This document shows, piece by piece, positions 1 to 10,302 of a stretch of 64,000 nt of DNA. Within the stretch, counting starts at the first letter, position 1. The number at the start of each line of letters is the position of its first letter. The translations under genes and the position numbers were made by a program. The notes beneath the pieces are model-generated. The model was not told where the DNA came from and did no database searches. It saw nothing but the letters and a program-made list of their open reading frames with translations. The stretch is from contig NZ_JABKDD010000004.1 of the NCBI RefSeq assembly GCF_013623905.1, forward strand, positions 1 through 64,000, given 5' to 3'. This DNA is from Brevibacterium sediminis (GTDB lineage: Bacteria; Actinomycetota; Actinomycetes; Actinomycetales; Brevibacteriaceae).

Positions 1-330
1 GTCACGCCCCCGGTTTTCCGGGGGTGGACAGCCTTCTGATCAAGTTACCGAGGTGGGCCGGGCTGGTGCCGGCCGCACCACCCATGTGATCGGACAAATC
101 GGCCCGAAGACACCACCAAAGGGGGTGGGTCACCGCCGGGTTGAGTCACGATCACGGGATGGGTACGGCCAACACCTACTCTGCCAGCCGGTCCCAGACC
201 AGCCACTACCAAGACTCACAGCCGTCGGGTAGCGCGGAGGGAGTTGCCGACAACTGAAAGCGAGGTGCCGCACGCCCGATACACTGCTGAACAGCACAGG
301 CCGTGGCCCACGAAAGAAAACGAGCGAGCG
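1..330. other. Non-coding lead-in with a hairpin at 7-24
   Basis: No convincing gene lies before the LysR start at 331. A perfect hairpin at 7-24 (CCCCCGG, loop TTTT, CCGGGGG) may end a gene left of the window, though it has no T-run. The long minus-strand reading frame from 130 to 993 is antisense to the LysR gene and resembles no known family. The LysR promoter should lie here but no clear -35/-10 pair was found. Confidence 0.4.
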
Positions 331-1209
331 ATGCAGTTCACCTTGGCACAGATCACCGGCTTCATCGCGGTGGCCGAAAACCTTCACTTCGGACGCGCCG
401 CTGAAGAGCTGAATATGACCCAGCCACCGTTGAGCCGGCAGATCCAGAAGCTGGAGAAATCGATCGGTGTCCACCTCTTCGAACGCAACAATCGCACCGT
501 CACACTTACGCCGGCAGGTGAGGCCTTCCTCGCTGAGGCATACGGTCTGCTCGCCTCCGTCGAGCGTGCCCCGCGGCGAGCACAGAAGATCGCCGAGGGC
601 TCCTGGGGTCAGATCACCATCGGGTGCACTGCGGTCTCGACGTTCGGCGTCCTCGGCAGTCTGGTCTCGACCCTGGCAGAACAGCTGCCGGGCATAAGCG
701 TCGAGATCGCCGAGATGGTTACGGCAGAACAGATCAAGGCCTTGTCTGAGGGCAAGATCGACATCGGCCTGGGGCGAGTGGGCCGCATTCCCGAAACCAT
801 CGACGCGACCCTGGTCCTGTCTGAGCAGCTCGTACTGGCAGTCCCTTCGGACCATGCGTTCGCCGCACGTGACTCTGTGGACACAAAGGAGATCTCCGGT
901 CAGCGACTGCTCATGCACGATGCCACGAGGGCTCGATACTTCTACGATCTCACCGTTCGCTACATCGATGTCGAAGCCAATGAGGTGGCTCATTCGCTGA
1001 GCCAGATCCTGACCATCGTCAATCTCGTCGCTGCTGGTCGCGGCATCGCCGTCGTCTCGGAATCAGCTGCTCGCCTCGGCGTCGACGGTGTCACATATGT
1101 GCCGCTCCACGACGCTCCACGCGATGTCGTCGAACTTCATGCGATCTGGAATCCGGAGTCCCGCAACCCGGCACTCAAGGAAGTCCTCGCATTGATTCGC
1201 AGAGAATGA
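331..1209 (+). CDS. LysR-family transcriptional regulator
   Basis: This 292-residue protein has the LysR layout. A winged helix-turn-helix fills about residues 1-60, with the recognition-helix stretch MTQPPLSRQIQKLE at 29-42, followed by a substrate-binding effector domain. The start is ATG 331, because LysR proteins begin directly at the helix-turn-helix; the open frame upstream (from 244) adds residues without homology. It lies 106 bases upstream of kdgD on the same strand, so it probably regulates the sugar-acid genes that follow. Effector and mode are not visible from the sequence; a sugar acid such as glucarate is an inference from the neighbours. Confidence 0.88.
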   Translation: MQFTLAQITGFIAVAENLHFGRAAEELNMTQPPLSRQIQKLEKSIGVHLFERNNRTVTLTPAGEAFLAEAYGLLASVERAPRRAQKIAEGSWGQITIGCTAVSTFGVLGSLVSTLAEQLPGISVEIAEMVTAEQIKALSEGKIDIGLGRVGRIPETIDATLVLSEQLVLAVPSDHAFAARDSVDTKEISGQRLLMHDATRARYFYDLTVRYIDVEANEVAHSLSQILTIVNLVAAGRGIAVVSESAARLGVDGVTYVPLHDAPRDVVELHAIWNPESRNPALKEVLALIRRE

Positions 1210-1315: not shown

Positions 1316-2263
1316 GTGGCCAATTACCAACCTCAAGAACTCGCCGACCATCTCAAGGACGGACTCCTCTCCTTCCCCGCGACAGCATTCAACGCAGACC
1401 TGTCCCTCGACGCCGACGCCTATTCCGACCACATCGCCTGGCAGTCGAGCTTCGACGTCGCAGGACTCTTCGCCGCTGGCGGAACCGGCGAGGGATTCAG
1501 CCTCACTCCCCCGGAAGCGAAACAGGTCGTGGGCTTGGCAGTTTCAAACTCACGTGCTGAAGTGCCGGTCCTTGCTTCGGCAGGGGGCGCCACTGCACAC
1601 GCCGTGCAGAATGCGATCGACGCCGAGGAAGCCGGAGCAGAGGGCCTTCTGGCCCTTCCTCCCTACCTCACTGAATGCAGCCAAGACGGCCTCTTCGAGC
1701 ACGTATCCGCCATCTGCAAAGCAACCAAGATCGGCGTCATCGTCTACAACCGGGCAAATGCGATCTACTCGCCCGAGACCGTTGAACGCCTCGCCGACAC
1801 CCATGAGAATTTCATCGGCTTCAAGGACGCCCTCGGCAACATCGAGCAGCTGACGAAGGTCTACGCCCGCACCGGCGACCGCCTCTTCTACCTCGGCGGA
1901 CTTCCGACCGCCGAAGTCTATGCACTGCCATTGCTGCAGCTCGGAATGAGCACCTACTCATCCGCCATGTTCAACTTCGCACCCGAATTCGCCCTCGACT
2001 TCTACGATGCGGTGCGCAAACAGGACCGCGCCGCCGTGACAGAGAAGCTCAACTCCTTCGTCCTGCCCTACTCGAAGATCCGCGAACGAGTGGCCGGCTA
2101 CGGCGTCTCCATCGTCAAGGGCGGCCTCAAAGTCATCGGCCGCGACTGCGGGCCGGTCCGGCCACCCTTGCAGAACCTCACCGAGGCAGACCTGCAGGAT
2201 CTCGAACAAGTTATGTCCGCTGCCGGCATCCGACTCGACCGCACCGCGTCCGCGGTCGCCTGA
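1316..2263 (+). CDS. kdgD: 5-dehydro-4-deoxyglucarate dehydratase
   Basis: The enzyme is a TIM-barrel protein of the dihydrodipicolinate synthase family. It dehydrates and decarboxylates 5-dehydro-4-deoxyglucarate to 2,5-dioxopentanoate (2-oxoglutarate semialdehyde) plus CO2. Visible family features are LFAAGGTGEGFSLTP (51-65), the active-site tyrosine Tyr144 in VYNRAN, and the Schiff-base lysine Lys170 in FIGFKD. Its 315 residues match the family length. The start is GTG 1316, with AAGGA nine bases upstream. The next gene oxidises the product, so these two form the end of the glucarate/galactarate pathway. The 4-hydroxyproline-pathway deaminases are relatives, but the sequence fits KdgD better. 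Confidence 0.92.
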   Translation: MANYQPQELADHLKDGLLSFPATAFNADLSLDADAYSDHIAWQSSFDVAGLFAAGGTGEGFSLTPPEAKQVVGLAVSNSRAEVPVLASAGGATAHAVQNAIDAEEAGAEGLLALPPYLTECSQDGLFEHVSAICKATKIGVIVYNRANAIYSPETVERLADTHENFIGFKDALGNIEQLTKVYARTGDRLFYLGGLPTAEVYALPLLQLGMSTYSSAMFNFAPEFALDFYDAVRKQDRAAVTEKLNSFVLPYSKIRERVAGYGVSIVKGGLKVIGRDCGPVRPPLQNLTEADLQDLEQVMSAAGIRLDRTASAVA

Positions 2264-2372: not shown

Positions 2373-4532
2373 ATGACGACGCAGTTCACTACCGCGACGA
2401 CCGACTCGGACGTCGACACATCACTTTCCGGCACATCAATTGTGGCCGGCACGAAGACGCCAGGACAGGGGGAGACCAGCCGTGCAATCAATCCGGCGAC
2501 AGGTGAGACCTTAGATCCCGAATACACGCTGCTCACCGAGGAGCAGGTATCCGCAGCCATCGCCGAGGCCCACGATGCGTTCCCTTCGTACCGCGGCACT
2601 TCGCCGGAGATCCGCGCAACCTTTCTCGAGAGAATCGCAGCCAATATCGAGTCTGACGCGCGGCGCATCGTCGACCGGGCCGTTCTGGAGACCGGACTTC
2701 CTGCGGGGCGCCTGAATGGCGAGATCACCAGAACCTCCAACCAGCTGCGCCTGTTCGCATCTGTCGTTCGGCTCGGTGACGCCCACGGCGTGCGCATTGA
2801 TCCCGCGCTCCCGGACCGCGCACCGCTGCCGCGCCCCGATATTCGTCAGCGCAAGGTTCCTCTGGGCCCCGTCGCTGTCTTCGGCGCGAGCAACTTTCCC
2901 CTTGCTTTCTCAACCGCAGGCGGTGACACCGCTTCCGCACTTGCTGCCGGATGCCCGGTCATCGTCAAGGCCCATAATGCCCACCCCGGGACCAACGAAC
3001 TGGTCGGTGCCGCCATCACTCGTGCCGTTCGCGACAGCGGGCTTCACCCGGGCGTCTTTTCACTCGTCTATGGGGCTGGCTCCGAGGTCGGGCAGCAGTT
3101 AGCCACGGACCGGCGGATCACGGCCGTAGGATTCACCGGTTCCAGGGCTGCCGGACTGGCATTGTCGGCCGCCACCGCGGCTCGACCCACACCGATCCCT
3201 GTCTATGCCGAGATGAGTTCAATCAATCCCGTGTTCGTCCTGCCAGGCGCCATTGCCGATGACGTCGCCGAGGTGGCCCAAGGCTTCTTCGGAGCAGTGA
3301 CCGGTTCCTCCGGTCAGTTGTGCACCTCCCCTGGAATTCTCTTCGTTCCCAACGGCGACCGTGGAGATGCGCTGACGGCTCGCATTGCTGAGGAATTCAA
3401 CGCGGCGAAGGGTCAAACGATGCTCACTCCCTCCATAGCCGCAGCCTGGCAGAGTGGAGTCGACCAGCTTTCAGCACAGCCGGGCGTCTCATCTCTGGCT
3501 CAGGGGGCGGATGGGGAGACGCTCAACGCGCCCGGGCCCCGCGTGTTCACGACCTCGATCCAGGACTTCGCGTCGAACAAGGAACTGCAGAATGAGATCT
3601 TCGGGTCCGCTGCCCTCGTCGTGCGCTATCACTCGACTGATGAGCTGGAGCATGTCGTAGCAGAGCTCGAAGGACAGCTGACTGCGACACTGCAGATGGG
3701 TGAACAGGACACCGAGGTGGCCGACGCGCTTGTGCGCGCGCTGGAACTCACCGTCGGACGGATCATCGTCAACGGTTGGCCGACAGGAGTCGATGTCGGC
3801 CATGCGATGATCCATGGTGGACCGTTTCCAGCGACGTCAGCTCCGCAGACCACCTCGGTGGGTGCAACTGCGATCGACAGGTTCCTCCGCCCGGTCGCCT
3901 ACCAGAACGTCCCGCAGGCCATTCTTCATCCGGTCCTCCAGGACGCCAATCCTTGGGCGGTGGCCCGGGTGCTCGATGGTCGATACTCTGCAGCACAGCG
4001 TGGCGATGCCTCGGCCGCTACCGACGCAGCTGTCTCGGCGAAATCCTTCGCAGACGGCGTGCGCCACCGTCTCAATGAACTCGGATTCGACCTTCCCGAA
4101 GCCAATCCCGCCAGCTACAGCTACGAGACGGTGACCGTCGCCGGCCAGTTGGCCTTCGTGTCCGGGCAGATTGCCAAACAAGGCGGAGAAGTACCGGTCC
4201 AGGGAGTCGTCGGTGAGGATCTGAGCATAGAGGACGGAATTGCGGCAGCTCAGCTGTGCGTGGTGAATCTCATTGCCCAGCTGGAGACGAACCTCGGCCT
4301 CGACAATGTCGAGGGCATCGCCAAACTCAACGTCTATGTGGCCAGTCCGACAGACTTCAGTAAGCACCCCGTCGTCGCTGAAGGGGCCTCCAAACTCCTT
4401 GTCGATGCTCTGGGAGACGCAGGCCGTCATGCACGCACTGCTCTGGGAGTCCCGCGTCTCCCTGCGAACTCACCGGTTGAGATCGAAGCCGTCGTCAAGC
4501 TCAAGAGTCCAGGTGAACTCCGCCCCAGCTGA
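2373..4532 (+). CDS. 2-oxoglutarate-semialdehyde dehydrogenase fused to a C-terminal RidA domain
   Basis: Residues 1 to about 536 form an NAD(P)-dependent aldehyde dehydrogenase of the 2-oxoglutarate-semialdehyde class. The catalytic set is Asn174 (GASNFP), Glu280 (YAEMSS) and Cys317 (GQLCTS). The stretch near 536 (NPWAVARVLDG) resembles the normal end of such enzymes. A linker rich in Ala/Ser/Asp (537-561) leads into a complete RidA/YjgF domain (562-711). That domain keeps FVSGQI, the Arg equivalent of the enamine-deaminase arginine (Arg688 in RHART) and VEIEAVV. The 719 residues compare with about 520-530 for stand-alone enzymes. The dehydrogenase oxidises the kdgD product to 2-oxoglutarate. 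The role of the RidA half is unknown; removing reactive imines formed from the aldehyde is one possibility. Confidence 0.9.
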   Translation: MTTQFTTATTDSDVDTSLSGTSIVAGTKTPGQGETSRAINPATGETLDPEYTLLTEEQVSAAIAEAHDAFPSYRGTSPEIRATFLERIAANIESDARRIVDRAVLETGLPAGRLNGEITRTSNQLRLFASVVRLGDAHGVRIDPALPDRAPLPRPDIRQRKVPLGPVAVFGASNFPLAFSTAGGDTASALAAGCPVIVKAHNAHPGTNELVGAAITRAVRDSGLHPGVFSLVYGAGSEVGQQLATDRRITAVGFTGSRAAGLALSAATAARPTPIPVYAEMSSINPVFVLPGAIADDVAEVAQGFFGAVTGSSGQLCTSPGILFVPNGDRGDALTARIAEEFNAAKGQTMLTPSIAAAWQSGVDQLSAQPGVSSLAQGADGETLNAPGPRVFTTSIQDFASNKELQNEIFGSAALVVRYHSTDELEHVVAELEGQLTATLQMGEQDTEVADALVRALELTVGRIIVNGWPTGVDVGHAMIHGGPFPATSAPQTTSVGATAIDRFLRPVAYQNVPQAILHPVLQDANPWAVARVLDGRYSAAQRGDASAATDAAVSAKSFADGVRHRLNELGFDLPEANPASYSYETVTVAGQLAFVSGQIAKQGGEVPVQGVVGEDLSIEDGIAAAQLCVVNLIAQLETNLGLDNVEGIAKLNVYVASPTDFSKHPVVAEGASKLLVDALGDAGRHARTALGVPRLPANSPVEIEAVVKLKSPGELRPS

Positions 4533-4754: not shown

Positions 4755-6404
4755 TCAGCGCTTGGAGAGAATATAGGTACGGTCCGACCCGATGAACCAG
4801 AGGTCCTCAGTGCCGATCGCCACATTGCCGTACCGCCACGGGATCTCCGCGGCGCCGAAGGAACCGACCTCCAAGACGTGCTTGTAGCCGGGACGCAACT
4901 CGTTGGCGAATGACTCCTGCTTGCCCATGAGGTGCCCGACATTGCGCTTCCGGTATTCCGTGTTGAAATCCACGTCTGCACCTAGCATGCCGATCTCGAT
5001 CATCCTGTCGAGGTGGGGCGCCAAGTAGTCCAATGTCCCCTGATGGACATCCTCGCACACGACTCCGGGACGCAACTGGCCGATGATTCCCTCACGGACC
5101 ACGTCGAAGAAGAACTCATAGGCCTCTTTGGCACTATCGGTACGCGGAAGCGACCGTGCCATATCGGAGGTCGCCACAGTGATCCCGTCAAAGGTGATCC
5201 GCACACCGGCGTCGAGTTGGATGCACTTCGTGTCATCGTTGATCGGGAAATCGACGGGAGGTCCGGGAAACAGCATTCTGTTCGAGGAGTGCAAGTTGGT
5301 GAAGTACGGTTCGATCGCAAAAGGAATCACGTTGTCCGTGCGAAATTCGACGATCTTGTCCACATAGCGCGCGTAGATGTCGAGCTCGGTGAACTCAAGC
5401 CCCGCCGCCAACGACTCCTCCGCCCATTTCAGAGCCTCTTCGATGGCGAAGACGCTGCACCTGGCAGCAACGATCTGGAACCCGAGGTCTTCGTGGTCAC
5501 GAATATCGCGCCAGTGACCGAGAGCGGTCGACAACTCATTGAGGACGGCGCCTTCGGCTTCGAGTTCGAGTGCCAGACCGGTTGCGATCCACTCCTCCTC
5601 AACGCCGATCTGATTGCCATGAGCCAGTGCCACAGCTGCCGCACCAAGTCCGGCGAAGCGGCCGATCGGAGTGCCGGACACACCGTGCGCGGTCTCCGGG
5701 GCGAGAACGTAGAGTTTCTCGTCCTGCGTTGACCAAACCGCCAGTTGATCTTCGCTCTGCTGAGTTCCGACGACCTCGCTGAAGTTCGGCGGAGCGGCGA
5801 TGATGACGGCGTCGAGACCGCGGTCCTTCGCCATCGACTGCAGCGCCGAATAGCGTGTGTCGGTCTGCGACTGGATCTCCTTGTCCAGTCCGTCAAGATG
5901 TTCGACGTCGTCGATGAGCCGCGTCGCAGTCTCCGCTCCGAGCTCACGCCAGCGAGAGAAGCGCTCAAGAACCGCTGCGGTGTCGATCTCATAGGCGACC
6001 ACCGGAGTCGTCGGCTGCTTGTCGGCGACGACATCGAGGCTCTCCGACAACGTCGAGTAGTGCTTCATGACAACACCGGAGTCGAGACCGACCTGATCCC
6101 CTTCTGCGAGCTCCTCAACCAATGTCGAGAGTGATGCTGAGGCTGGTGTATCGGCAACAATTCGGGGATCGATCGTCACCCACGGCGCATAGAATCTCAT
6201 CCGCTCCTTCGGTACCCCGGCGGACAGGGCGTTTCCCTGCTCCTGCTGGCGAACAAGCAGCACTTCACCGTCAGTCGTGTCGGCGATGATCGGTGCAACC
6301 AGAGGGCTCGAATCAAGGCGAATCGCAGAGAACAGAAGGCTCTTCTGGGCATCTAGTCCGAACGAATCTGCCAGACGCGTCTTGTCGGTTGTCAGTTTGA
6401 TCAT
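4755..6404 (-). CDS. M24-family (creatinase/aminopeptidase P fold) metallohydrolase
   Basis: The C-terminal half of this 549-residue protein is a pita-bread M24 domain with all five metal ligands recognisable: Asp398 (LDAG), Asp414 (TSD), His491 (GHLMG), Glu512 and Glu533. The first 310 residues look like two consecutive creatinase-N-type domains (about 20-150 and 185-300), as in long aminopeptidase P enzymes; most bacterial homologues have one and are near 380-450 residues. The start is ATG 6404, with GGAG upstream. It is the last gene of an operon with a NitT/TauT-type importer, so it probably hydrolyses an imported N-containing compound such as an X-Pro peptide or creatine-like amide. Substrate is not decidable. 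Confidence 0.82.
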   Translation of the reverse strand: MIKLTTDKTRLADSFGLDAQKSLLFSAIRLDSSPLVAPIIADTTDGEVLLVRQQEQGNALSAGVPKERMRFYAPWVTIDPRIVADTPASASLSTLVEELAEGDQVGLDSGVVMKHYSTLSESLDVVADKQPTTPVVAYEIDTAAVLERFSRWRELGAETATRLIDDVEHLDGLDKEIQSQTDTRYSALQSMAKDRGLDAVIIAAPPNFSEVVGTQQSEDQLAVWSTQDEKLYVLAPETAHGVSGTPIGRFAGLGAAAVALAHGNQIGVEEEWIATGLALELEAEGAVLNELSTALGHWRDIRDHEDLGFQIVAARCSVFAIEEALKWAEESLAAGLEFTELDIYARYVDKIVEFRTDNVIPFAIEPYFTNLHSSNRMLFPGPPVDFPINDDTKCIQLDAGVRITFDGITVATSDMARSLPRTDSAKEAYEFFFDVVREGIIGQLRPGVVCEDVHQGTLDYLAPHLDRMIEIGMLGADVDFNTEYRKRNVGHLMGKQESFANELRPGYKHVLEVGSFGAAEIPWRYGNVAIGTEDLWFIGSDRTYILSKR

Positions 6405-6523
6405 TGCGTTTCCAACTCCATATCTTCCTTGAGACGTGTTCGCCTCGTGCGGTGTGCCTTGGGCCGAAGGATCCCTGCCGGCCATCCCTGGCATGTGTTC
6501 GTCGGGCCGGAGGGGCGGACCGC

Positions 6524-7303
6524 TCAGCTGATTCCGGCGGTGACGCCGATGTGGGATTCGATCTCCGCCACGTAGCTGGCGAAGTTCTCTGAGAATTTGT
6601 GCTCTTTCGCGCGGGGACGTTCGATGTCCACCTTGACGTCAGCGACGATCCGTCCCGGACGATCACCGACAACGACGACTCGATCTGCCAGCCATACAGC
6701 TTCAGAGATGCTGTGGGTGACGAAGAGGACACTGCAGCCCGTGCGGCGCCAGATCCTCTGGATTTCGAAGTTCATCGAATCACGCGTCATCGCGTCGAGT
6801 GCGCCGAATGGCTCATCCATGAGGAGAATTTCCGGACGTGAAACCAACGCGCGGCAGATGGCGACGCGTTGCTGCATCCCACCGCTGAGCTCGTAGGAGT
6901 ACCGGGTCGCTTTCTCTCCAAGTCCGACCATGTGCAGCAGCTCCATGGCGTGGTCCTTGGATTCCGATGTGACGGCGTCACGAAATTCCAAGGGCAGGAG
7001 GACATTGTCGAGATTATTCCGCCAGGGCAGGAGGACCGGGCTCTGGAACACCATTCCGATGTCCTTGAGTGCGGCGCTGATCTCACGTCCGCGGATGAGG
7101 ATTTCGCCTTCAGAGGCTTCCTGCAGACCCGAGATCGTGTTGAGCAGAGTGGTCTTTCCGCTGCCGGACTGGCCGACGATCGAGACGAACTCCCCCGGGT
7201 TGACATGGAAGTCGAGTCCCTTGAGGACGACGTTCTCCTGCCCGTCTCGCGAGGTGTAGGTCTTGCCGACGTTGTTGACTGAGATCGCATAGTCAGTGGT
7301 CAT
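6524..7303 (-). CDS. ABC transporter ATP-binding protein, NitT/TauT type
   Basis: The 259-residue ATPase energises an importer of the nitrate/taurine/sulfonate class. Walker A is GQSGSGKT (44-51), the Q-loop glutamine is Gln87, the signature is LSGGM (139-143, Met replacing the usual Gln) and Walker B is LLMDEP (160-165). The start is ATG 7303, with GGAG seven bases upstream. It follows the binding-protein gene by 13 bases and precedes the M24 gene, all on the minus strand. Confidence 0.9.
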   Translation of the reverse strand: MTTDYAISVNNVGKTYTSRDGQENVVLKGLDFHVNPGEFVSIVGQSGSGKTTLLNTISGLQEASEGEILIRGREISAALKDIGMVFQSPVLLPWRNNLDNVLLPLEFRDAVTSESKDHAMELLHMVGLGEKATRYSYELSGGMQQRVAICRALVSRPEILLMDEPFGALDAMTRDSMNFEIQRIWRRTGCSVLFVTHSISEAVWLADRVVVVGDRPGRIVADVKVDIERPRAKEHKFSENFASYVAEIESHIGVTAGIS

Positions 7304-7316
7304 GGTCGTACTCCAT

Positions 7317-8345
7317 TCACTTTGTGGGTGCCGCAACGTCTTCGTCATGGCGAATCGGGTCGATGTAGTCGTTCGTATAGATGTCATCGACGGTGAGGTC
7401 GGTCGAATTCTCGAGACCGAGGAAGTCAGTGGCCACGCTCAGCATCTGCCCAACTCCATCGTCGGTCATCACACCGAACTGGTCGTCTGCCTTTCCGGTG
7501 GCCCAGTTCAACTCGCATTGCGACTTGAGCGCATAGGTCACGGTCTCCGGTTCGTACCCTTGAACTTCCTTCGTGAACTCCTCTGCAGTCTGATCCGGGT
7601 GGTCGCAGGCCCAGAGAAAGCCCTTCTGCATCGCGCGGTTGAAGCGCTCAATACGCTCGGGATCATTCTTCAGGGCCTCATCCGAGACCACGATGCCATT
7701 GCCGTAGAGGTCGATGCCGACGTCAGACCATTTGAGGATGTTCGCCTTCTCACCGAGCGCCATCAGCGCCGGCTCGTCGGAGACGTAGAGCGCGAGGTTC
7801 GCATCCCAGCGGTCGGCCAGCAGACCTGGAATCTTCGATTCGCCGGTGGCGTGGACGACGTTGACGTCATCCTGTTTAAGGCCACTGCGTTCGAGCGCGA
7901 GCGGCCACATAGCCGTCATGGCACCGGCACCCTCAGTCGCCACCGTCTTGCCCTTCATGTCCTCCCAGGTTTTGATACCCGAACTCTCGAGTGCGATAGT
8001 CGCGTACGCTGATCGGGCCTGAAGCAGATTCACCTGCTTAACGTGAGCTCCTTTGCCCTGGCTGAGGATGGTCGCGCCGAAATCGGCCCATCCGGCGTCG
8101 ACTCTCCCGGTTTCGACGGAAGTCACGGTGTTCGTTGAGCCGGAACCCGGCATCAGCGAGACGTCGAATCCTTCCTCTTCAAAGAACCCCTCGGCCTCAG
8201 CTGCGAAGAACGGTGCGTGCTTCGGCAGATAGGCGACGTCGACCATGAGGTTGAAGTCATCGAGTCCGTCCTTTGGCGTGCATCCTGTCAGAGTGACGAC
8301 AGACAGCAGGAGCGGCGCAACTAGCAGTTTCTTCAAGATGTGCAT
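7317..8345 (-). CDS. ABC transporter substrate-binding lipoprotein (NMT1/THI5-like, SsuA/TauA fold)
   Basis: A signal peptide ends in the lipobox LTGC, with the lipid-anchored cysteine at residue 22. The mature part is a type-2 periplasmic-binding fold of the NMT1/THI5 class, for example AYLPKHAPFFAAEAEGFFEEEG and the GRVDAGWADFGA segment. The length of 342 residues is normal. ATG 8345 is preceded by GAGGCGGAACC; a longer reading from 8378 lacks a better site. It recognises the imported compound outside the membrane. Relatives bind sulfonates, nitrate, pyrimidine precursors or riboflavin, so the ligand cannot be named. Confidence 0.88.
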   Translation of the reverse strand: MHILKKLLVAPLLLSVVTLTGCTPKDGLDDFNLMVDVAYLPKHAPFFAAEAEGFFEEEGFDVSLMPGSGSTNTVTSVETGRVDAGWADFGATILSQGKGAHVKQVNLLQARSAYATIALESSGIKTWEDMKGKTVATEGAGAMTAMWPLALERSGLKQDDVNVVHATGESKIPGLLADRWDANLALYVSDEPALMALGEKANILKWSDVGIDLYGNGIVVSDEALKNDPERIERFNRAMQKGFLWACDHPDQTAEEFTKEVQGYEPETVTYALKSQCELNWATGKADDQFGVMTDDGVGQMLSVATDFLGLENSTDLTVDDIYTNDYIDPIRHDEDVAAPTK

Positions 8346-8356
8346 GGTTCCGCCTC

Positions 8357-9205
8357 TCACTTCGTGTAGTTCTTCCACGGCAGCAGCTTCTTCGAGATGA
8401 GGTCGATGATGAAGAAGAGAAGCAATGCGATCGCCGCAAGCACGATGAATGCTGCGAACATCGAGGGGAGGTCGACCTGAGAGTTCGCGAGAAGAATGAC
8501 GTATCCGAGTCCCTTGGACCCGGCGATGAACTCACCGACCACGGCCCCGCCGACAGCCAGCGAGATCGAGATCTTAGCTCCCGTGAAGATCGAAGGAAGC
8601 GCATAGATGAAATCGATCTTCATCATCTTCTTCAGCTTCGAGGCACGGTTGATGCGTGCAAGGTCCTGCAGCTCGTGCGGCACAGAGTTGAGCCCGTCGA
8701 ATGTGTTGATGACGAGCGGGAAGAATGCGATGGCCATTGCCACGAAAGCCTTCGACTCGAAGCCGAAGCCGAACCAGACGATGAACAGCGGCGCCAGAGC
8801 GACCTTCGGAATCGTGTCGATGGCGATGAGCGCCGGATAGAGGAAGGGACGAAGGAAGGAAGCGTAATAGAGGAGTGCTCCACACAGAACGCCCAATGCT
8901 GTGCCGAGCGCAAAGCCTGCGAGACCTTCCTGCAGGGTAGTGAGAGCGTTGACCGCGAAGTATCCCGGGTTCGTGAACAATTCTTCGAACGCCGAAATCG
9001 GACCGACAAGCAGATACTTCGGGAAGTCGAAGATGAAGACTGCTAGCTCCCAGATCGCGAACAATCCGACGAGCCCGACAACAGCTTTGATTCCCGCTGT
9101 GAATGACTCAGGTTTGAGCCTAGATGCAGTCGGCGGAGCTGCCGGCGCAGGGCCGGGCTCCACAGGTCGAACTGCATCGGTATCGATGCGTGGTGCTGTT
9201 GTCAT
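8357..9205 (-). CDS. ABC transporter permease, NitT/TauT type
   Basis: This 282-residue integral membrane protein shows about six hydrophobic segments after a Pro/Ala-rich cytoplasmic tail. It carries the binding-protein-dependent permease coupling region (INRASKLKKMMKIDFIYALP) that contacts the ATPase. ATG 9205 was chosen because GGAGGG stands eight bases upstream. It is the first gene of the operon permease, binding protein, ATPase, M24 hydrolase, with gaps of 11, 13 and 119 bases. Confidence 0.9.
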   Translation of the reverse strand: MTTAPRIDTDAVRPVEPGPAPAAPPTASRLKPESFTAGIKAVVGLVGLFAIWELAVFIFDFPKYLLVGPISAFEELFTNPGYFAVNALTTLQEGLAGFALGTALGVLCGALLYYASFLRPFLYPALIAIDTIPKVALAPLFIVWFGFGFESKAFVAMAIAFFPLVINTFDGLNSVPHELQDLARINRASKLKKMMKIDFIYALPSIFTGAKISISLAVGGAVVGEFIAGSKGLGYVILLANSQVDLPSMFAAFIVLAAIALLLFFIIDLISKKLLPWKNYTK

Positions 9206-9474
9206 CGGCGATCCCTCCATTGGGTTCTGGTCCATGAGCAGGTGTGCATTGCATTTGTGACGTGGAACAACTGTGATGCGTTCCAGTATTCGCGACTCAA
9301 CGATGCCTGTCCAAGATTGTTTTCGCATGTTTCGATACCCTGAAGGAATTGCATCGATGAGTTTGTGCAGGCAGGAAAAACTCGAGAGTTGAATTGAGAA
9401 ACGCCAGGATACTCGGACTTCCCAAGAACATCCTGGCGCACCATGGCAACGTCGCGCGCAACGCGGATCCCCGA
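9206..9474. other. Upstream region of the ABC operon with inverted repeats
   Basis: No gene is present. The region holds TGGAAC (9263-9268) facing GTTCCA (9280-9285) close to the permease start, a possible operator. It also holds a 9-base inverted repeat, CGCCAGGAT (9402-9410) and ATCCTGGCG (9430-9438), with a 19-base loop. Neither repeat has a run of T after it. The promoter of the minus-strand ABC operon must lie here. Confidence 0.35.
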
Positions 9475-9543: not shown

Positions 9544-10302
9544 CTAGGAGCGGGCGGTGGATAGGTCCTCGCGGAAGGCTCGGCCTGCGGCGCCCAAGTC
9601 GCCGCATGAGGTGATGAAGCGGAAGCCCTGTTCCCGACGCAACCGAGCCTCCTCGCCGTCGCCGCAGTGGATTCCCGGAACCACCCCGGCGGCATCGGCG
9701 GCCGTGCGGATCCGCACGAGCGCCTCGGCGTGGGCCTCGTTGTGCTGCCCCGGCAGCGCGCCGACAGCGAACGCGAGATCGGACGGACCGACGTACACCC
9801 CGTCGATTCCCGGCACGGCGCAGATGTCCTCGACCGCGGCCAGACCCTCCTCGTTCTCGATCATGACGAACAGCAGCGGCCGCTCATCCCGAGTGTCCTG
9901 CACGGCGCCGTGCATGATCTCGGCTGTCGGTCCCCACGAACGATCCCCGCCCCGCGAGGGATAGTCGAGCGCGGCCACCGCGGCCTGTGCTTCGTCGACC
10001 GAGGATACGAGCGGGACGATGATCGCCTCGACTCCGGCGTCGGCGAGCGCCCCGATCTCGGTGAATCGGTTCGCCGCGACCCGCGCCGTTACGAGTGCGT
10101 CGCCGCTGGCGCGCACAGCGTCGGACAGTCGCAGCACGTCGGTGGGCCGCACCAGCCCGTGCTGCAGGTCGAGGCAGACATAGTCGAATCCGGCCGCCGA
10201 CCCGGCCTTCGCCAGCTCCGGACTCGTCGACATCATCCACAGTCCGTTGTAGATCTCCCCCGCGCGCAGGCGGGCCCGATGGTTCTCAATCGCAGCAGTC
10301 AT
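9544..10302 (-). CDS. HpcH/HpaI-family aldolase
   Basis: The protein is a class II, metal-dependent pyruvate-type aldolase of 252 residues. It cleaves or forms 2-oxo-hydroxy acids such as 4-hydroxy-2-oxoheptanedioate or 2-keto-3-deoxy sugar acids. Family marks are the YVCLDLQHG segment near residue 40, the metal-site glutamate in MIENEEGLAAVEDI and the GVYVGPSDLAFAVG loop. It stands alone on the minus strand between the palindromic repeat and a region with three GCCGAGGCGG motifs. No strong ribosome site precedes ATG 10302. A role with the sugar-acid genes at 1.3-4.5 kb is possible but not shown. Confidence 0.87.
   Translation of the reverse strand: MTAAIENHRARLRAGEIYNGLWMMSTSPELAKAGSAAGFDYVCLDLQHGLVRPTDVLRLSDAVRASGDALVTARVAANRFTEIGALADAGVEAIIVPLVSSVDEAQAAVAALDYPSRGGDRSWGPTAEIMHGAVQDTRDERPLLFVMIENEEGLAAVEDICAVPGIDGVYVGPSDLAFAVGALPGQHNEAHAEALVRIRTAADAAGVVPGIHCGDGEEARLRREQGFRFITSCGDLGAAGRAFREDLSTARS

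Follow-up and report, generated by a model that had tools for sequence, protein, structure and literature searches.

Why should an aldehyde dehydrogenase (ALDH) carry a complete Rid domain at its C-terminus, and what would this domain act on? The question is raised by an open reading frame of Brevibacterium sediminis at positions 2373-4532 (+) of the window, the stretch of 64,000 nucleotides analyzed here. The frame encodes 719 amino acids with zero internal stop codons. Pfam recognized Aldedh at residues 31-475 (3.3e-53), YjgF_endoribonc at residues 566-701 (1.1e-17) and Ribonuc_L-PSP at residues 580-708. The protein consists of an ALDH half of the KGSADH type (2373..3980 (+), residues ~25-536), a linker (3981..4058 (+), residues ~537-562) and a Rid1 domain (4059..4496 (+), residues ~563-708). 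In the alignment the C-terminus of unfused ALDH relatives falls approximately at the linker start of the fused proteins, at the 'DG' of residues 535-536. The linker itself varies in sequence and length among the fused species. In the predicted structure of the fusion most of the linker and the Rid half stayed below a pLDDT of 50, with a 24-row alignment in which only ten rows were fused.

An earlier note on this DNA had described an in-frame ALDH-Rid fusion with no stop codon or frameshift between the halves, sharing its locus with kdgD, and had regarded its occurrence in other genomes as decisive. The uninterrupted frame in the window and the position of kdgD at 1316..2263 (+) agree with this description. 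The full-length fusion was found in 9 of 57 Brevibacterium genomes with 78-100% identity, the genomes being a sample of one per species. This recurrence, together with the dN/dS values given below, rules out an assembly artefact or a one-off event. A TGA in the rows of two genomes (G002 and G056) is the ordinary stop codon 3' of the Rid domain. Separate translation of the Rid domain from an internal start is unlikely; four in-frame GTG codons are present (3960-4131), with no Shine-Dalgarno sequence evident by eye. In a collection of species genomes, 6 of 79 loci were fused among the best 80 of 120 matches. All six belong to Brevibacterium, namely B. permense, B. antiquum, B. aurantiacum and three strains without a species name. 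None of the 1767 matching records of a plasmid collection contained a place covering 80% of the fusion query.

Both halves of the fusion are under purifying selection and the linker is weakly constrained. Eight of the nine fused genomes supplied 11 pairs, for which dN/dS was calculated with our own script. The values amounted to 0.08-0.18 for the ALDH half and 0.04-0.24 for the Rid half, which was below the ALDH half in 8 of the 11 pairs. For the linker 0.22-0.75 was obtained in the nine unsaturated pairs.

The ALDH half matches PF00171. Its residues N174, E280 and C317, which we take to be the ALDH catalytic Asn, Glu and Cys, are invariant across 24 aligned ALDH rows. The closest solved structures are 3v4c, entitled 'Aldehyde dehydrogenase (NADP+)', and 1eyy. 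Among the best 25 of 39 NCBIfam matches no model reached its cut-off for the fusion protein, and the unfused ALDH of the glucarate operon likewise stayed below every cut-off among the models listed. We infer the assignment as KGSADH type (EC 1.2.1.26) from the operon and from phylogeny: the fused ALDH is orthologous to copies which stand beside glucarate and talarate/galactarate dehydratases in glucarate/galactarate operons.

The Rid domain is complete, as the earlier note had stated. Its subfamily is Rid1 and not RidA proper, since the nearest solved relatives are Rid1 proteins. These structures are 3d01, followed by PA0814 and ACIAD3089, and Table 3 of PMC5619798 assigns the latter two to Rid1. 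In the in vitro assays given in that paper PA0814 and ACIAD3089 deaminated several imines and did not deaminate iminoarginine. According to PMC4433059, Rid1 retains the Arg and the Glu of RidA, and the Arg is essential to imine hydrolysis. In the fusion R688 corresponds to R105 of E. coli RidA, E703 to E120 and Y584 to Y17, and each is present in 21 of 21 Rid1 rows; thus, the catalytic Arg688 pointed out earlier is indeed kept. RidA residues N88 and C107 are replaced by P666 and A690, and the other Rid1 rows likewise lack N88 and C107. Judged by its match to PF14588/PF01042, its closest relatives and its active-site Arg, Glu and Tyr, the Rid half is a Rid1 domain and a predicted imine deaminase. 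It shares the sequence family (PF14588) and the catalytic Arg, Glu and Tyr positions with PA0814 and ACIAD3089. In contrast to these single-domain proteins, the Brevibacterium Rid1 is fused to an ALDH and belongs to a separate clade. Two other multidomain Rid proteins, which likewise carry Rid C-terminally or internally, have partners different from a dehydrogenase: the 3x-RidA tandem described in PMC4433059 joins Rid to further Rid, and in the eukaryotic proteins with DUF71 and two C-terminal RidA domains described in PMC3541065 the partner is a diphthamide-synthesis PP-loop ATPase.

Upstream of the fusion gene and kdgD a LysR-type regulator gene is located at 244..1209 (+), which is the open reading frame as listed; the actual start is perhaps later. 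On the opposite strand follow the genes for an M24-fold metallohydrolase-like protein (4755..6494 (-); PF00557 and predicted fold) and, by family match, an ABC importer ATPase (6524..7387 (-)), an NMT1/THI5-like substrate-binding protein (7317..8378 (-)) and an ABC importer permease (8357..9328 (-)). THI5 and a formyl-aminopyrimidine binder are among the solved relatives of the binding protein (E 1e-12 to 1e-8). The same layout, in which LysR-kdgD-fusion converges on the genes for M24, ATPase, binding protein and permease, was seen in the fused genomes read. The M24 gene was present in 9 of 9 fused and in 0 of 48 unfused Brevibacterium genomes. This co-occurrence gave a Fisher value of 1e-10 without kinship correction and may represent one inherited event in one clade.

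Four unfused genomes (G003, G053, G029 and G018) carry a glucarate/galactarate operon at the same site, as matched by the flanking genes. The operon families were checked on the proteins of G003 and on one protein of G053. They comprise a talarate/galactarate dehydratase (NF047820, 673 bits, cut-off 500), a glucarate dehydratase (TIGR03247, 763 bits, below the cut-off of 829) plus another with a weaker match, KdgD (369 bits, slightly below 374), an ALDH without Rid, LysR, TctC and TctA. At the fused loci read, the dehydratases and the TctC/TctA transporter of the glucarate operon are missing, and M24 and the NMT1-like importer are found instead. Hence the fused locus is not a canonical glucarate/galactarate operon, in which a sugar-acid dehydratase is linked to kdgD-KGSADH.

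The M24 protein matched PF00557 above the Pfam cut-off, and its structural model had a mean pLDDT of 77.6. Over residues 174-579 the modelled fold resembled prolidase (Z 19.2), DoeA (17.9), creatinase (17.8) and DddP (16.3) at 13-17% identity. No PDB relative was found by sequence at E<=0.01, and PHROGs gave no match for the protein. Residues D428, D444, H521, E550 and E563 are invariant in 21 rows and are, judged by eye from M24 patterns, presumably the metal ligands; the two Asp residues are spaced more widely than D260 and D271 of E. coli aminopeptidase P. The Brevibacterium protein has the fold of the M24 family (prolidase, aminopeptidase P, creatinase, the ectoine hydrolase DoeA and the DMSP lyase DddP) and appears to keep the presumed metal-ligand positions; it differs by ~170 additional N-terminal residues. 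The comparison of the modelled fold fits hydrolase and lyase chemistries alike.

The M24 gene is rare beyond Brevibacterium. Its relatives were sought in samples of 394 genomes of the class, 148 genomes of the genus of one of its carriers (G106) and 396 genomes of the order. Such relatives were detected on three Rhodococcus plasmids (60-63% identity), in three further genomes among the 394 of the class and in 10 of the 148 genomes of the genus, one of which had already been counted. In the order 7 of 396 genomes were positive, which are Brevibacterium and one other genome (G594) only. A Pantoea relative (27% over 43%) was rejected as belonging to another branch; its annotated 18.7 kb contain several peptidases and no Rid. 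At all 15 M24 loci outside Brevibacterium a separate Rid1 gene adjoins M24; as these loci were gathered via M24, they show Rid1 following M24 and cannot show Rid1 without M24. The importer binding protein is encoded in 15 of the 15 loci as well, kdgD in 12 and a full-length KGSADH-like ALDH in 10. KGSADH is absent from loci L195 and L222 and is a fragment in L217. Two further loci (L196 and L205) contain M24 and Rid1, and neither kdgD nor a KGSADH-like gene was found in the 30 kb examined. The usual order of the cluster is LysR <> kdgD-ALDH-permease-binding protein-ATPase-M24-Rid1, and in the seven loci measured its genes are co-stranded and -70 to 247 bases apart. This arrangement suggests that the fused Rid piece normally exists as its own gene, within an uptake-and-breakdown cluster not described before. 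Among the papers listed by a literature search which covered few subscription journals, none described an ALDH-Rid fusion or an importer-M24-Rid1 cluster. On the plasmid of Rhodococcus sp. USK13 (L196:13154-17125) the genes for the binding protein, M24 and Rid are each in two pieces, the cluster being in decay. In genome G594 (L205:9001-15109) the importer, M24 and Rid1 genes stand beside an open reading frame which appears TetR-like by eye.

The ancestry of the parts was followed in quick trees with SH-aLRT support only. The Rid tree was midpoint-rooted and contained 9 fused and 14 M24-linked Rid1 proteins; the broken Rid1 of L196 was left out by the coverage filter. All 23 fused and M24-linked rows formed one clade (99%) against 50 other Rid1 proteins. 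Of these 50, 22 are stand-alone copies from the same genus. Nine positions set the clade apart, including Y582 near the active-site Tyr as well as T689 and L691 beside the catalytic Arg. T689 and L691 are present in all 23 clade rows and in 1 of 50 and 3 of 50 other Rid1 proteins, respectively. In the M24 tree the fused-locus clade (100%) stands beside the G106-type proteins (98%), the joining branch having 89%. The fused-locus KdgD and ALDH branch from within the Brevibacterium glucarate-operon copies (95% and 97%), whereas the M24-cluster copies are grouped in separate clades (100% and 99%). In the ALDH tree approximately two thirds of the non-Brevibacterium loci L086-L116 were omitted, and some genes occurred twice owing to two overlapping loci. 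The separate clades imply either that the cassette of importer, M24 and Rid1 met kdgD-KGSADH twice or that a resident pair displaced an incoming one. Either event would indicate that this cassette and KdgD-KGSADH belong together.

The KdgD of the window passes TIGR03249, a 5-dehydro-4-deoxyglucarate dehydratase model, with 382.3 bits against a cut-off of 373.95, and of the PDB entries it matches the keto-deoxygalactarate dehydratase 4ur7 best. These two results rule out a hydroxyproline pathway, in which a HypD-type deaminase would take the place of KdgD; moreover, none of the ten annotated window proteins resembles a hydroxyproline enzyme. kdgD occurs in 23 of the 57 genomes and as a single copy in each fused one. 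Glucarate dehydratase was detected in 13 of the 57 genomes, that is in 0 of 9 fused versus 13 of 14 unfused kdgD-bearing genomes. Relatives of talarate/galactarate dehydratase occur in 15 of the 57, among the fused ones only in G000 (68%) and G044 (37%). The GarD family was above its cut-off in 0 of 57 genomes and gave sub-cut-off matches in the fused genomes G005 and G027. Five of the nine fused genomes thus gave no match to glucarate dehydratase, talarate/galactarate dehydratase or GarD. The unfused genome G051 has kdgD without a glucarate or talarate/galactarate dehydratase match; consequently, kdgD without either dehydratase is not confined to fused genomes. In G051 and G050 (loci L031 and L036) a divergent LysR-kdgD-ALDH locus type is present, with a KdgD identity of 61% and no Rid1 match. 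The genome of the window (G000) contains at L226:11614-17725 a mandelate-racemase-family dehydratase (the 68% relative of talarate/galactarate dehydratase), an SDR, an RraA-like protein and an ALDH. This locus lies on contig C39, which is not the contig of the fusion, and no second kdgD was found in the genome at E<=1e-40.

The residues of KdgD were compared with 45 other KdgDs at positions of at least 95% uniformity, after removal of four very long-branch rows. The fused-locus KdgD has a single change at these positions, the conservative L299V. Its substrate is therefore probably unchanged, and on the simplest reading it still uses 5-keto-4-deoxy-hexarate, which M24 and Rid1 would supply. The KdgDs of the clusters alter several uniform positions, among them W42R and F248V in 12 of 12. 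Accordingly, the substrate may differ between the clusters and the fused locus.

With a probability of roughly 0.5, we propose that the fusion is bifunctional and serves a dedicated catabolic pathway, as yet undescribed, which consists of importer, M24, Rid1, KdgD and KGSADH. Its chemistry and the order of its steps are predicted from sequence comparison. The NMT1-like ABC importer would bring in a nitrogen-containing compound, which the M24-family enzyme would cleave to an enamine or imine. The Rid1 domain would then convert the imine to a 2-keto acid, in the simplest case 5-keto-4-deoxy-hexarate, and ammonia. KdgD would form 2-oxoglutarate semialdehyde from the 2-keto acid, and the ALDH half would oxidize it to 2-oxoglutarate. 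Brevibacterium would have brought together the importer-M24-Rid1 cassette and the kdgD-KGSADH pair of its glucarate operon and fused Rid1 to KGSADH. Several points speak against this model. The presumed metal ligands of M24 favour amide hydrolysis, which need not yield an imine, and we know of no natural hexarate-type amide or enamide. The dehydratase-related matches leave a sugar-acid supply possible in 4 of the 9 fused genomes. The M24-importer genes of Brevibacterium converge on kdgD-fusion and do not form one operon with them.

A more tentative extension is that importer, M24 and Rid1 replace the sugar-acid dehydratase, supply KdgD-KGSADH from a hexarate-like compound which bears nitrogen, and were joined twice to this pair, and that the fusion forms a large assembly of mixed symmetry which contains both active sites. 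We take the Vibrio enzyme 1eyy to be a dimer. The only solved KGSADH given in PMC9795676 is tetrameric, and Rid proteins are typically trimers as stated in PMC4433059. A two-fold ALDH connected to a three-fold Rid via a flexible linker would be expected to form a hexamer or a larger cage.

A closely related explanation is that Rid1 and KGSADH belong to one pathway and were fused for mere convenience, i.e. for co-expression, stability or as an oligomer scaffold, the intermediate being free and not channeled. The poorly conserved, length-variable linker and the purifying selection on both halves are consistent with it. It is, however, compatible with the proposed pathway and differs only in the advantage of fusing; as a separate account we consider it unlikely.

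The earlier note had suggested that the Rid half is a tethered repair domain, since the aldehyde made by KdgD can form cyclic imines with amines. In a wider form of this reading the domain would hydrolyse imines which 2-oxoglutarate semialdehyde or 5-keto-4-deoxyglucarate forms with amines or ammonia. The domain is indeed fused to the enzyme which handles the aldehyde, and PMC5619798 describes the in vitro hydrolysis of diverse imines by Rid1 proteins. The distribution of the gene points elsewhere. The orthologous Rid1 tracks M24 and not KGSADH, being adjacent to M24 in every non-Brevibacterium M24 locus, even in L196 and L205 with neither kdgD nor KGSADH nearby; this adjacency ties Rid1 to the M24 step. 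When 104 KGSADH-related loci were searched with 21 Rid1 queries (E<=1e-4), the six fused loci gave a Rid1 match and 0 of 98 unfused ones did; the shorter loci have flanks of ~1.5 kb, beyond which a Rid1 gene could escape the search. If the domain guarded against aldehydes in general, Rid1 should be found at more KGSADH loci. The repair function thus finds no support in the gene neighbourhoods and appears improbable; the Rid domain appears to be an enzyme dedicated to the pathway and coupled to the M24 step, and less a guard against aldehyde damage. That the Rid half is a non-catalytic or an RNase/regulatory domain carried by a neutral fusion, as the Pfam family name 'putative endoribonuclease' and the loss of RidA N88 and C107 (shared by other Rid1 rows) might suggest, is very unlikely given the invariant R688, E703 and Y584 and the lower dN/dS of the Rid half in most pairs.

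The cellular roles of Rid1 are poorly known because these proteins have seldom been tied to one pathway. The fusion, the exact co-occurrence and the conserved gene order bind one Rid1 clade to specific partners. Its physiological imine thereby becomes findable, namely via the compound which is bound by the importer and cut by the M24 enzyme. If the proposed catabolic pathway is true, Rid would be a committed catabolic step and not damage control, and the substrate of KdgD would have a source which does without an enolase-superfamily dehydratase.

Two observations concern the edges of the site. Positions 9544-10302 (-) of the window encode an HpcH/HpaI-family aldolase, which is retained at this edge in the fused and unfused genomes read. 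The nearest NCBIfam models of this protein are sugar-acid aldolases, none at its cut-off. At the opposite edge (L038:250-3812) an ABC permease with two permease domains, a HAD-family hydrolase and a zinc alcohol dehydrogenase are encoded, and these open reading frames have look-alikes in unfused genomes.
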